Source: Gelidibacter salicanalis (GTDB lineage: Bacteria; Bacteroidota; Bacteroidia; Flavobacteriales; Flavobacteriaceae). Taken from it: a DNA stretch of 64,000 nt. The stretch lies in contig NZ_VORX01000001.1 of the NCBI RefSeq assembly GCF_007997285.1, positions 248,001 to 312,000 of the forward strand, given 5' to 3'. Both the position numbers and the translations under genes were made by a program. Below are positions 57,749 to 60,005 of the stretch, one piece after another. Position 1 is the stretch's first letter. The number at the start of each line of letters is the position of its first letter. The notes beneath the pieces are model-generated. The model was not told where the DNA came from. It worked only from the letters and a program-made list of their open reading frames with translations, and did not search any database.

Positions 57749-58465
57749 ATGGCAGAGTTACAAATTAACACCACTCAAAATGTGAAAATAAATTTTACGA
57801 CCGCAGGAGCTGGTGAGCGTTTGTTGGCATTCATAATTGATACGCTGATTAAACTAGGCTATTTGGCGCTTTTAAACATGACGGTAGGCGCATTTCAGAA
57901 TATGGACCAATGGTCTCAAATAGGCATTAATACGGTGTTAGGGCTGCCCGTGGTGTTTTACACGCTGGCTTTAGAGTCTGTAATGGAAGGGCAAACCATT
58001 GGTAAGCGGTTGATGAATATAAAGGTGGTAAAAATTGATGGCTACCAAGCATCACTTGCAGATTATGTAGTACGTTGGTTTTTCAGAATTGTCGATATCT
58101 ACATTTTAGGGTTAGGCTTTTTTGTGATCATTTTTAGTAAGAGATCCCAGAGATTGGGTGATATGGCGGCAGGGACTTCGGTGATTCTTTTAAAGGACAA
58201 GGTCAATATCAGTCACACCATTTTAGAGGAATTGGACGATGATTTTAAACCGACTTACCCGACGGTCATTAAGTTGTCCGACAATGATGCACGAATTATA
58301 AAGGAAACGTTTACCGCGGCAAAATCATCCAACGATTATCAAACCTTAATTAAATTACGCGCTAAAATCACAGAGGTAATAGGCGTAGAGGCGATCAATG
58401 GAAACGACATTCAATTTATCGACACCATTTTAAAAGATTATAATTATTACACTCAAAGAATGTAA
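57749..58465 (+). CDS. RDD-family membrane protein
   Basis: 238 residues from the ATG at 57749 (MAELQINTTQN). The RDD motifs are GERLLAFIIDTLIK (start of helix 1), a second helix (VLGLPVVFYTLALESVMEGQ), IGKRLMNIKVVK and YVVRWFFRIVD, and the third helix at VDIYILGLGFFVIIF. A cytoplasmic helical tail follows (about 150-238). It is divergent from the SpoIIM gene and fits as the sixth member of the MoxR locus. The 81-bp tandem repeat array begins 23 bp downstream. Confidence 0.9.
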   Translation: MAELQINTTQNVKINFTTAGAGERLLAFIIDTLIKLGYLALLNMTVGAFQNMDQWSQIGINTVLGLPVVFYTLALESVMEGQTIGKRLMNIKVVKIDGYQASLADYVVRWFFRIVDIYILGLGFFVIIFSKRSQRLGDMAAGTSVILLKDKVNISHTILEELDDDFKPTYPTVIKLSDNDARIIKETFTAAKSSNDYQTLIKLRAKITEVIGVEAINGNDIQFIDTILKDYNYYTQRM

Positions 58466-58474
58466 GCAGCGAAC

Positions 58475-58499
58475 CATATTTTCCTTTTCGGAAAATATG
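58475..58499. other. Hairpin at the start of the repeat array
   Basis: A perfect 10-bp stem (CATATTTTCC/GGAAAATATG) with a 5-nt loop, 9 bp after the RDD stop. Its right arm is the first repeat unit's start, so only unit 1 has this extra stem. Confidence 0.65.
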
Positions 58500-58935
58500 T
58501 GTGAGTCGCTTATCCCGCTGTTTAGCGGGATCTCATCATATAATCATCTAATTAAATAAATCTATATATCGGAAAATATGTGTGAGTCGCTTATCCCGCT
58601 GTTTAGCGGGATCTCATCATCTGATTACATAATTTAATAGATTTATATTTCGGAAAATATGTGTGAGTCGCTTATCCCGCTGTTTAGCGGGATCTCATCA
58701 CATAAATATTTAATCAATTAGATTTATATTTCGGAAAATATGTGTGAGTCGCTTATCCCGCTATTCAGCGGGATCTCATCACATATATCCTGATTTAATA
58801 ATCATATATTTCAAATATATGTGAATCGCTTATCCCGCTTTTTTAGCAGGATCTTAAGAATATAATTTATATTTCGTTAAGAAAGTCTAATAGATGTGAG
58901 CAGTTCATCTCGCTGTACAGTGGAATCTCATTTCA
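58489..58935. repeat. Tandem array of an 81-bp repeat, about six units, each with a hairpin
   Basis: Units begin at 58489, 58570, 58651 and 58732, exactly 81 bp apart. A shorter fifth (about 58812) and a degenerate sixth (about 58875) follow. Each unit has a conserved 50-bp core: CGGAAAATATGTGTGAGTCG, then CTTATCCCGCT, a 4-nt loop and AGCGGGATCTCATCA. A variable AT-rich part of about 31 bp follows. The core folds as ATCCCGCT/AGCGGGAT. Copy 4 changes only the loop. Copies 5 and 6 decay. No cas genes are near. Confidence 0.9.
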
Positions 58936-59399
58936 TAAGTTGCCGATATTTCAGGGAAAGCTTTTCACAAAACTTCTACCAGTCGTTTTGAATGTTGGTA
59001 TGGTCTAATTTGATTGTTAATTGCTTTAGAATATCATAAGTGAAGAAAGAGAGAAACGTAAAAATTTTTATACATCCCATAATGGTGAATTGCAATAAAG
59101 CTGCTCTCATTAGATTGGTGTATATACCCCTCAAACGACTTTCTAGGTTGACTTATTTTTCTAATATTTAAATTTTAATAGTTTAAGTTTAACTTGAAAA
59201 TATGCTTATAATTGTTTAGTTACAAGAACAATGTGTAATTTTGTTTTAAATAAAATCTTGGATTAATATTGTGAAATTGAACTTACTAAACCAATATCCA
59301 AAACCCACTCTTTCCATTTCTCCCGACATTTCTCCCATTAAAGTTTAAATTGATCTTAGGGCTTCCTATCTTTGGCCGCTGAACTTTTTACGATAATTT
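58936..59399. other. Gene-free interval
   Basis: 464 AT-rich bases without a credible open frame. TATCTTTG at 59367-59374 is an exact -7 box for the downstream channel gene, 25 bp before its ATG. I see nothing else. Confidence 0.6.
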
Positions 59400-60005
59400 A
59401 TGTTTCTACAAACCATAGACATTCTTGGGACCATTGCTTTCGCCATTTCTGGTGTATCCATAGCCATGGATAAAAAAATGGATGCCTTTGGTGTTCTGAT
59501 CATTGCTTTTGTGACCTCGGTTGGTGGTGGTACCATGCGAGATGTGCTGATTGGGGTGACTCCAGTAGCCTGGATGACGAACATGACCTATGTATACGTG
59601 ATTTTTGCTGCCACTATTTTTACGGTTATTTTTCGCCGGAAAATTAATTATTTAAGAACCTCTTTATTTCTATTTGACACGATTGGGATCGCCCTGTATA
59701 CAGTTGTGGGTATTCAGAAAGGGCTGGCCATAGGTCTGCATCCCATCATTTGTATTTCCTTAGGGACCATGACCGCGTGTTTTGGAGGTGTGCTCAGGGA
59801 TATGTTATGTAATGAAATCCCGGTGATTTTTAGAAAAGAAATTTACGCTACAGCCTGTATTTTGGGAGGTGTTGCTTACTTTGTGTTGAGTCAGTTCCCG
59901 ATTGAGGATAATGTGATATTTATGGTTGCCGGTTCTGTAGTGATCACTGTACGCTTAATTGCGGTAAAATTCAAAATTAGTTTGCCGAGCCTTTATAAAG
60001 CATAA
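59400..60005 (+). CDS. TRIC-family / UPF0126 membrane protein (YicG-like)
   Basis: 201 residues with six or seven hydrophobic segments in two repeats. Each half has the conserved GGG/GG-xx-RD turn: SVGGGTMRDVLIG (40-52) and FGGVLRDMLCNE (about 128-139). The duplication is typical of prokaryotic TRIC-type cation channels. It stands alone, between the repeat-containing interval and a terminator. Confidence 0.92.
   Translation: MFLQTIDILGTIAFAISGVSIAMDKKMDAFGVLIIAFVTSVGGGTMRDVLIGVTPVAWMTNMTYVYVIFAATIFTVIFRRKINYLRTSLFLFDTIGIALYTVVGIQKGLAIGLHPIICISLGTMTACFGGVLRDMLCNEIPVIFRKEIYATACILGGVAYFVLSQFPIEDNVIFMVAGSVVITVRLIAVKFKISLPSLYKA

Follow-up and report, generated by a model that had tools for sequence, protein, structure and literature searches.

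Results

The array starts on the stop codon of an RDD-family gene

The window (the whole 64-kb stretch of DNA that we analyzed) contains a tandem array of hairpin units directly behind a gene for an RDD-family membrane protein, and Pfam names the neighboring genes as RDD, SpoIIM, Gly_transporter and peptidase M3 (Table 1). TRF placed an array of period 81 at 58488–58854 (4.6 copies, score 473). The preliminary description had reported four units exactly 81 bp apart followed by two decayed units, and this agrees with the TRF result, with the comparison of units, and with matches of model R1 to decayed units 5 and 6 at 58793–58854 and 58894–58928. The core is nearly invariant and the linker drifts, as had also been reported: in six pairwise comparisons of units 1–4, the core differs at 0–2 of 50 positions and the linker at 9–21 of 31, and among units 1–3 any two linkers differ at only 9 of the 31 positions. 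The claim that copy 4 is altered in its hairpin loop only is correct as well; its core is changed solely at two bases in the SL2 loop, which reads ATTC instead of GTTT.

Table 1. Coordinates of the array and its flanking genes within the window. Energies are in kcal/mol.
Feature	Position	Strand	Basis or property
RDD-family membrane protein gene	57749–58465	+	ORF; Pfam PF06271, E 3.4e-22; start codon picked by eye
RDD stop codon TAA, outer three SL1 pairs with TTA 58510–58512	58463–58465	+	Sequence
SL1 of unit 1, complete; internal loop AGCGA/GAGTC (tandem G.A), variable tip	58463–58512	+	R2 match 58463–58513, fold, covariation
SL2 of unit 1, ATCCCGCT-GTTT-AGCGGGAT	58512–58531	+	Folds; R1 match 58460–58533
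Tandem unit 1 in the register of the preliminary description (SL1 3′ arm, SL2, linker)	58489–58569	+	TRF, unit comparison
Tandem unit 2	58570–58650	+	SL1 3′ arm: –21.8 with unit-1 5′ arm, –14.1 with local upstream sequence
Tandem unit 3	58651–58731	+	SL1 3′ arm: –21.8 with unit-1 arm, –11.0 locally
Tandem unit 4, SL2 loop ATTC	58732–58812	+	SL1 3′ arm: –21.8 with unit-1 arm, –15.7 locally
Decayed unit 5	58813–58875	+	SL1 3′ arm: –10.1 with unit-1 arm, –14.5 locally
Decayed unit 6	58876–58945	+	R1 match 58894–58928
Gly_transporter-family gene, downstream, outside the element	59400–60005	+	Pfam PF03458

The left edge, which had been placed at 58489, lies further upstream. The array adjoins the RDD gene end without a gap and unit 1 reaches left to 58463, the TAA of RDD; the sequence ATGTAAGCAGCGAACCATATTTTCCTTTTCGGAAAATATGTGTGAGTCGCTTATCCCGC... 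opens with the last codon and the stop codon of this gene (ATG TAA). Taken from 58463, unit 1 folds as a longer SL1 followed by SL2 (–32.1 kcal/mol, z –6.2, with 0 of 200 shuffles as good). The repeated module consists of the SL1 3′ arm, SL2 and the linker, and the original SL1 5′ arm is confined to unit 1. When later units are folded alone in the earlier register, ATGTGTGAG pairs with CTCATCACAT around SL2, a local fold that is an alternative to arm exchange with unit 1. We found no ORF of at least 60 aa inside the array, a relaxed search for SL1 on both strands of the window gave 58463 as the sole match, and tRNA was the sole family in an Rfam 15 scan of the window, with none covering the array.

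A hairpin at 2389 had been proposed as a relative of the array. At 2389–2413 of the window, just past an apparent gene end, there is an SL2-like hairpin (CCCCGC-GAGA-GCGGGG, then ACCTCAT). The SL2-like stem is indeed common to both sites, but SL1 is absent from this one and R1 gives no match there at E ≤ 1.

SL1 embeds the stop codon and is supported by covariation

The first bases of SL1 are the stop codon and the last are its complement (TAAGC...GCTTA; UAAGC/GCUUA). Its internal loop is conserved and carries tandem G.A (AGNGA/GANUC), its tip changes in sequence while pairing is kept, and SL2 usually comes next. Among 13 first units, 7 of 24 pairs are changed on both sides; alignment A2 left out the RDD locus of genome G005 (SL2 decayed), the IcmF locus of G002 (another hairpin inserted) and G006 (contig end). 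For a wider view, we scanned 84,980 species genomes with the pattern AGCAGAGARCCN{10,40}GNGYGAATCGCT, which does not contain any stop codon, and obtained at least 112 stretches with at least 121 elements; the phyla of 121 elements were assigned by hand from the titles of their records, and some MAGs carry doubtful labels (L115, L188). The covariation set comprised 48 SL1 sequences from three phyla, 44 of them a seeded draw from the pattern matches listed (tips of at most 24 nt) and 4 added by hand. In this set, 97.9% of cells are paired, 13 of 16 pairs are changed on both sides, and the covariation score is 0.436 as compared to 0.132 (sd 0.012) for shuffled alignments, with 0 of 500 shuffles as high and slid controls at or below 0.120.

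The stem also tells which strand folds. Among 106 unique pattern matches listed, SL1 pair 11/41 is A-U in 68, G-C in 35, G-U in 3 and A-C in 0. Single mismatches in the pattern matches listed are G.T/T.G in 15 cases, A.C/C.A in 1 and others in 11 for SL1 stem tips, and G.T/T.G in 5 and A.C/C.A in 2 for SL2. This excess of G.T over A.C suggests that the sense strand folds, as RNA or as single-stranded DNA. These data bear on the idea that the array is a tandem, operator-like set of DNA-binding sites or is CRISPR-like, as a conserved core with drifting linkers might suggest. However, the linkers in the window are homologous and alike, not unique spacers between identical repeats (the likeness to CRISPR had already been called superficial), some loci consist of no more than one or two units, and covariation with changing stem sequence argues for a fold rather than a duplex site; we find either version extremely unlikely.

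To describe the outer pairs, we used the 82 loci that match our expression, which allows crossed combinations, out of a hand-made list of 90 whose model-derived rows lean to structure: the stop codon and its partner are TAA/TTA in 76 and TGA/TCA in 6, and all five P1 pairs are present in 80 of the 82. In the Bacteroidota pattern matches listed, where these bases are free, TA..TA occurs in 44 and TG..CA in 3 of 47 unique sequences. The outer pairs are less strict in Firmicutes (TG..TA 4, TA..CA 1 and AA..TA 1 of 54 unique matches listed). A hairpin that contains and follows a stop codon could be a recoding signal that promotes reading through; however, TAA and TGA are both in use, and the SL1 tip varies from 15 to 32 nt among the Bacteroidota pattern matches listed, so that the reading frame downstream of the stop is not maintained. 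We therefore regard readthrough as hardly credible. Of the elements listed, a crude script test detected SL2 in 38 of the 48 from Bacteroidota, 35 of the 68 from Firmicutes and 1 of the 5 from Synergistota. By eye, the SL2 of Firmicutes and of some flavobacteria have a TGA...GAA head in common.

Further arrays in the genome and genus vary in unit number

In the same genome, 12 units of 85 bp each form a second array behind a fused methylmalonyl-CoA mutase/MeaB gene, which we take to be IcmF-type; it starts with ATGTAAGCAGCGAACCA, like the RDD array. A third array lies behind a CMD-family gene with a TGA stop, and its repeated later units have, by eye, a new 5′ stretch GAGCGAT opposite ATCGCTC. 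First-unit matches occur in 9 of 9 genus genomes examined, own genome included, and complete first units at RDD and IcmF amount to 15 loci in 8 genomes, the ninth genome (G006) reaching a contig end. Unit number ranges from 1 to 12 across species and loci by a crude split. Outside the genus of the window, 13 R2-positive Flavobacteriaceae genomes have at least two matches within 150 bp; in G227, up to eight 69-bp units lie behind IcmF with the junction ATCTC-AGAGAACC, and the later units are without TAAGC. The preliminary description, which had called for a search of the core in the genome and its relatives, thus understated the case when it spoke of an expanded intergenic hairpin family: the core is neither confined to this locus nor uniform in copy number between species, since it stands at two further gene ends in the genome and in all nine genus genomes with a variable number of units, and SL1 is found in other phyla.

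Because the repeated module brings only a 3′ arm, we calculated the pairing of later arms with the unit-1 5′ arm. For 37 later units in 16 genus loci (in two G002 loci, no later units were found because of inserts), an energy of –12 kcal/mol or below is reached by 31 of the 37 SL1 3′ arms with the unit-1 5′ arm and by 6 with local upstream sequence, 3 of these 6 being in the window array. In the window, units 2–4 pair better with unit 1 than locally, and unit 5 shows the reverse. Mean pairing energy is –18.0 kcal/mol within the own array (36 arms), –15.6 with the arm at the other gene of the same genome and –11.7 with other genomes, identical arms excluded. One 5′ arm on a stop codon could pair with most 3′ arms of its array and with those of other element-bearing mRNAs in the cell, and the array might then serve as a lid, switchable or acting in trans, for the stop codons of a small regulon; we think this improbable, and common descent with homogenization predicts the same trend from own to same-genome to foreign arms.

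Several other hairpins were seen in these genomes. A hairpin of a second class, TTAGTGAAAC...GTTGAACTAAT, which has SL2 (ATCCCGC..GCGGGATC) in common with the array and is partly in tandem, occurs in the own genome at L053 C18:492697, L062 C21:149342, L063 C15:158565, L067 C8:31953, L072 C18:373342, L006 C19:182937 and L017 C20:259269-259554; in the copies tested, no ORF ends exactly at its start, the one in L072 ending 4 nt away. In G002 (L031, L039, L019), SL1 and SL2 are separated by a CCTGAGC..AGCCGAAGGG or CCTCAGC..GTCGAAGGG hairpin that is similar to SL2 in other genera. At L007 8914-9014, a small Cys-rich frame (metallothionein-like by eye) lies behind the IcmF array and is followed by a sigma-70-family gene.

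Bacteroidota elements sit on the stop codons of a few gene families

For 47 of the 48 Bacteroidota elements listed, the start coincides exactly with the stop codon that ends an ORF at least 60 codons long. In L136, the 48th, an earlier stop precedes the duplicated dnaK end on which the element lies. Judged by their C termini, the 47 matches listed belong to IcmF (25), RDD (12), DnaK (7), CMD (2) and a peptidyl-prolyl isomerase (1), five families of which one member each was confirmed by Pfam. Model R2 gave a similar picture. In a prior test of 70 loci, 9 had no match to the expression and 2 had short frames only, and match starts were then tested directly: 64 of 69 examined matches (28 of 30 and 36 of 39) begin on the stop of such an ORF. 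The five exceptions are L240, 4 nt behind the dnaK stop, L244, after a duplicated element start, L292, an inner unit, and L293 and L295, on duplicated dnaK ends. Counted once per gene and genome, the 80 Flavobacteriaceae loci comprise RDD 25, IcmF 24, DnaK 14, CMD 6, isomerase 5, SDF symporter 5 and SodA 1, with Pfam searches of examples. Flavobacteriaceae elements thus lie in sense orientation at the stops of a small set of genes.

Among 299 Flavobacteriaceae genomes from 236 genera, model R2 finds SL1 in 66, which belong to 52 genera, with 1–8 matches per positive genome, and R1 finds the element in 34 of 149 genomes of the family; the E-values of both models rest on a shortened calibration. 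A draw of 395 Bacteroidota genomes, whose own share of Flavobacteriaceae is unstated, gave 11 positives at E ≤ 1e-4, all of them Flavobacteriaceae. By eye, the last dnaK codons and the stop are duplicated in L136, L293 and L295 on either side of a CCTGAGC..GTCGAAGG-like hairpin, with the element on the second copy, a layout like a target duplication beside a hairpin insert.

The dnaK loci also bear on transcription termination. At 12 of 14 of them, a terminator-like hairpin with a T-run lies at most 260 nt behind the element, which places the element inside the predicted message; in a stricter scan of three dnaK loci, a site on the gene strand was found only in L097. The array between RDD and the next gene might itself be a set of terminators or attenuators, because its GC-rich SL2 hairpins come right behind the gene end and because, at dnaK locus L238, SL2 with its T-rich tail scores as terminator-like. 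However, we found no terminator-like site in 58300–59450 of the window, where the hairpins are without a T-run, and the site behind the element at the 12 dnaK loci is separate and longer. A terminator array is thus very unlikely.

Conservation probably reflects more than vertical descent

Within the genus, identity over the 71 nt from the stop codon on is 86% for RDD (21 pairs) and 88% for IcmF (15 pairs), as compared to 55% and 54% at upstream third codon positions and 60% for both genes in the next 200 nt, which include later units. The element is not imposed by the protein end. IcmF is present in 81 of 110 Flavobacteriaceae genomes and 81 of 81 proteins end in GGQYRRNM, with or without the element. 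A simple test found element signatures at 13 of the 81 IcmF genes (L366 and L369 have 5′ remnants only), and by eye there are three more diverged elements (L345, L384, L395), while the other 65 are unrelated after the stop; the element is therefore an addition to the IcmF gene end that a minority of genomes carry.

To ask how the copies are related, we compared loci on the hand-made list of 90, in which many of the 31 same-genome pairs come from the genus of the window. The distance between SL1 tips is 0.338 within a genome and 0.352 within a gene across genera, against a background of 0.424. For SL2, the distance is 0.336 within a genome versus 0.434 and 0.440, meaning that SL2 are alike only within genomes. 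For SL1 tips and SL2 alike, 1 of 2000 permutations gave a within-genome distance as low. This within-genome likeness suggests that homogenization or re-insertion within genomes plays a part, and some of the conservation may thus be due to gene conversion or re-insertion. As the test gave both signals, we adopt neither purely vertical nor purely concerted descent.

In Firmicutes, SL1 behaves as a dispersed repeat

Outside Bacteroidota, SL1 coincides with an ORF stop codon in 4 of 68 Firmicutes and 2 of 5 Synergistota elements listed. R2 matches at E 0.001, with 150 candidates scored per genome, number 110 in Clostridium sp. OS1-26, 89 in C. magnum, 38 in C. neonatale, 26 in C. carboxidivorans and 23 in C. 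bovifaecis, and there are 13 in Sporomusa silvacetica, 9 in Acetobacterium dehalogenans and 6 in each of two Synergistaceae. Thus, the trait of a dispersed, high-copy palindrome is seen in the five Clostridium genomes, in contrast to the few matches per positive Flavobacteriaceae genome. Rfam scans of 12 Firmicutes and Synergistota loci found tRNA, rRNA, a cobalamin riboswitch and a group II intron, none over the element; since tRNAs and rRNAs lie beside the elements, we rejected the idea that Firmicutes SL1 is itself a tRNA or riboswitch. In the six loci with tRNA or rRNA beside the element (L119, L129, L132, L143, L163, L182), the element is codirectional with those genes, and for 45 Firmicutes elements listed with an ORF of at least 100 codons within 600 nt upstream, the ORF is on the same strand in 32 and on the opposite strand in 13. 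Among viral contigs, 1 stretch has the pattern; this SL1 copy (L219 6186-6226, an IMG/VR contig) lies within an apparent coding region.

Some Firmicutes copies are composite. In 9 of the 68 Firmicutes elements listed, SL1 lies directly behind a partial tRNA that comprises the 5′ acceptor strand and the D arm, to about GGTA, a composite that recalls SINEs; the tRNA heads in L124, L132, L147, L164, L172, L182 and L194 resemble complete nearby genes for tRNA Lys, Thr, Phe and Arg, and a tenth flag, in L167, looks spurious. A Clostridium hairpin of about 125 nt (ATCCAGGGACGTAGC...GTCATCGGATAA) has SL1 in its loop in L118, L120, L128, L141, L205 and L214, and L137 has a 72-nt copy without SL1. We rejected L137 as a clean empty site because it is not a simple uninterrupted version.

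These data bring in the main rival to a function in mRNA, a selfish hairpin repeat of the REP or MITE kind copied by some enzyme that recognizes single-stranded hairpins. Such a repeat would land where it does little harm (after genes, in tRNA/rRNA spacers), its TA-rich end would happen to supply a stop codon, and tandem arrays would be functionless by-products. The Clostridium copy numbers and the copies beside tRNA and rRNA genes, the tRNA-head composites, the duplicated dnaK ends beside a related hairpin, the patchy presence at the same IcmF site and the within-genome similarity all fit this. However, free insertion does not explain why nearly all Bacteroidota elements listed lie at stops, in sense and in five gene families, the conservation exceeds that of third codon positions, and a clean empty site was looked for in the Clostridium composite and not found. 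Y1_Tnp was sought in the own genome and 13 others; at 30 loci examined out of 42 matches in 10 genomes, with flanks of at most 1.5 kb and some cut by contig ends, no SL1 was found beside it, and 3 of 13 genomes searched have SL1 copies yet are without Y1_Tnp. We therefore rejected mobilization by a RAYT. Overall, we consider a selfish repeat possible but doubtful as an account of the array, and both readings can hold in different hosts. The one Y1_Tnp match in the own genome is a 128-aa frame; a different palindrome, GACCTCACAGG..CCTGTGAGGT, stands on either side of this Y1_Tnp-like gene (L048 1270-1300 and 1892-1922). The REP foot GT[AG]G occurs within 10 nt 5′ of 1 of 106 unique SL1 copies listed, and C[TC]AC within 10 nt 3′ of 3 of the 106.

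Discussion

A stop-codon hairpin that may act in mRNA

We give a somewhat better than even chance to the reading that the array arose when a conserved two-hairpin element, which embeds a stop codon and most likely works in mRNA, expanded in tandem. This reading is based on the placement of 47 of 48 Bacteroidota matches listed at stop codons, in sense orientation and in five gene families, on covariation of the stop codon and stem with the wobble asymmetry expected of a folding sense strand, on conservation above that of third codon positions, and on the terminator-like sites behind the element at most dnaK loci. An origin as the 3′ end of the RDD transcript had been suggested before; position, orientation, wobble asymmetry and the dnaK terminators are consistent with it as far as sequence can tell.

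Several observations point the other way. In Firmicutes, SL1 is high in copy number and rarely on stops, as expected of a mobile repeat, and its outer pairs are looser; SL2 is rarer in Firmicutes and Synergistota; SL1 tips and, above all, SL2 are alike within genomes; the wobble asymmetry fits one-strand single-stranded DNA equally well; about 65 of the 81 IcmF orthologues do without the element; and later units are able to fold alone.

If the element does act in mRNA, it would be transcribed and fold in the cell. After the last ribosome leaves, SL1 would close over the stop codon and keep nucleases away from the end of the frame, perhaps with the G.A loop bound by a protein; alternatively, the element might affect termination. 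Tandem duplication of the SL1 3′ arm and SL2 would supply more hairpins and more 3′ arms, most of which could pair with the 5′ arm of unit 1, and unit number would drift as in any tandem repeat. According to a review of 3′UTRs, the surroundings of stop codons are enriched in RNase E sites and mRNA becomes open to exonucleases when 3′ hairpins are lost (PMC7821165), statements that give the shielding idea precedent, not proof. If this reading is true, an RNA whose stem takes in the stop codon has been retained, with compensatory substitutions, at few gene ends across one bacterial family, and the role of a structure exactly at the stop codon is testable by editing a single stem in one organism. 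As the same hairpin is a dispersed repeat in unrelated phyla, it asks whether REP-like repeats get domesticated for mRNA control.

Comparison with known systems

We found no Rfam family that covers the SL1 element: in sub-threshold scans of 19 loci and L121, nothing came near the gathering score of any family. The Flavo-1 RNA motif, a structured RNA of Flavobacteriaceae reported in 5′ transcribed regions (PMC9723704), gave no match at E ≤ 5 in the 19 loci. A literature search by sequence string and terms in the open-access subset did not find the element, and the string matches listed concern unrelated subjects.

An intrinsic terminator ends in a U-run, which the hairpins in the window lack, although SL2 at L238 has a T-rich tail. 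Kink-turns have tandem sheared G.A beside an asymmetric 3-nt bulge; compared by sequence only, SL1 has the conserved tandem G.A but a loop with five positions per strand. BOX and ERIC are modular repeat elements with a variable number of inner modules, intergenic and near gene ends, and our element is like them in its modular, intergenic, gene-end layout. Protective or regulatory mRNA hairpins in 3′UTRs (PMC7821165) likewise lie at the 3′ end of coding sequences; in contrast, our element is a single conserved structure found again at several genes that are not related to one another, and the stop codon itself is part of it. REP and BIME sequences with their RAYT (PMC6006769; PMC3733652) resemble the element as small extragenic palindromes, of which there are many per Clostridium genome, often after genes and sometimes in tandem. 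Unlike them, SL1 has a conserved internal loop, carries a stop codon in its stem, and occurs in few copies at fixed genes of Flavobacteriaceae.
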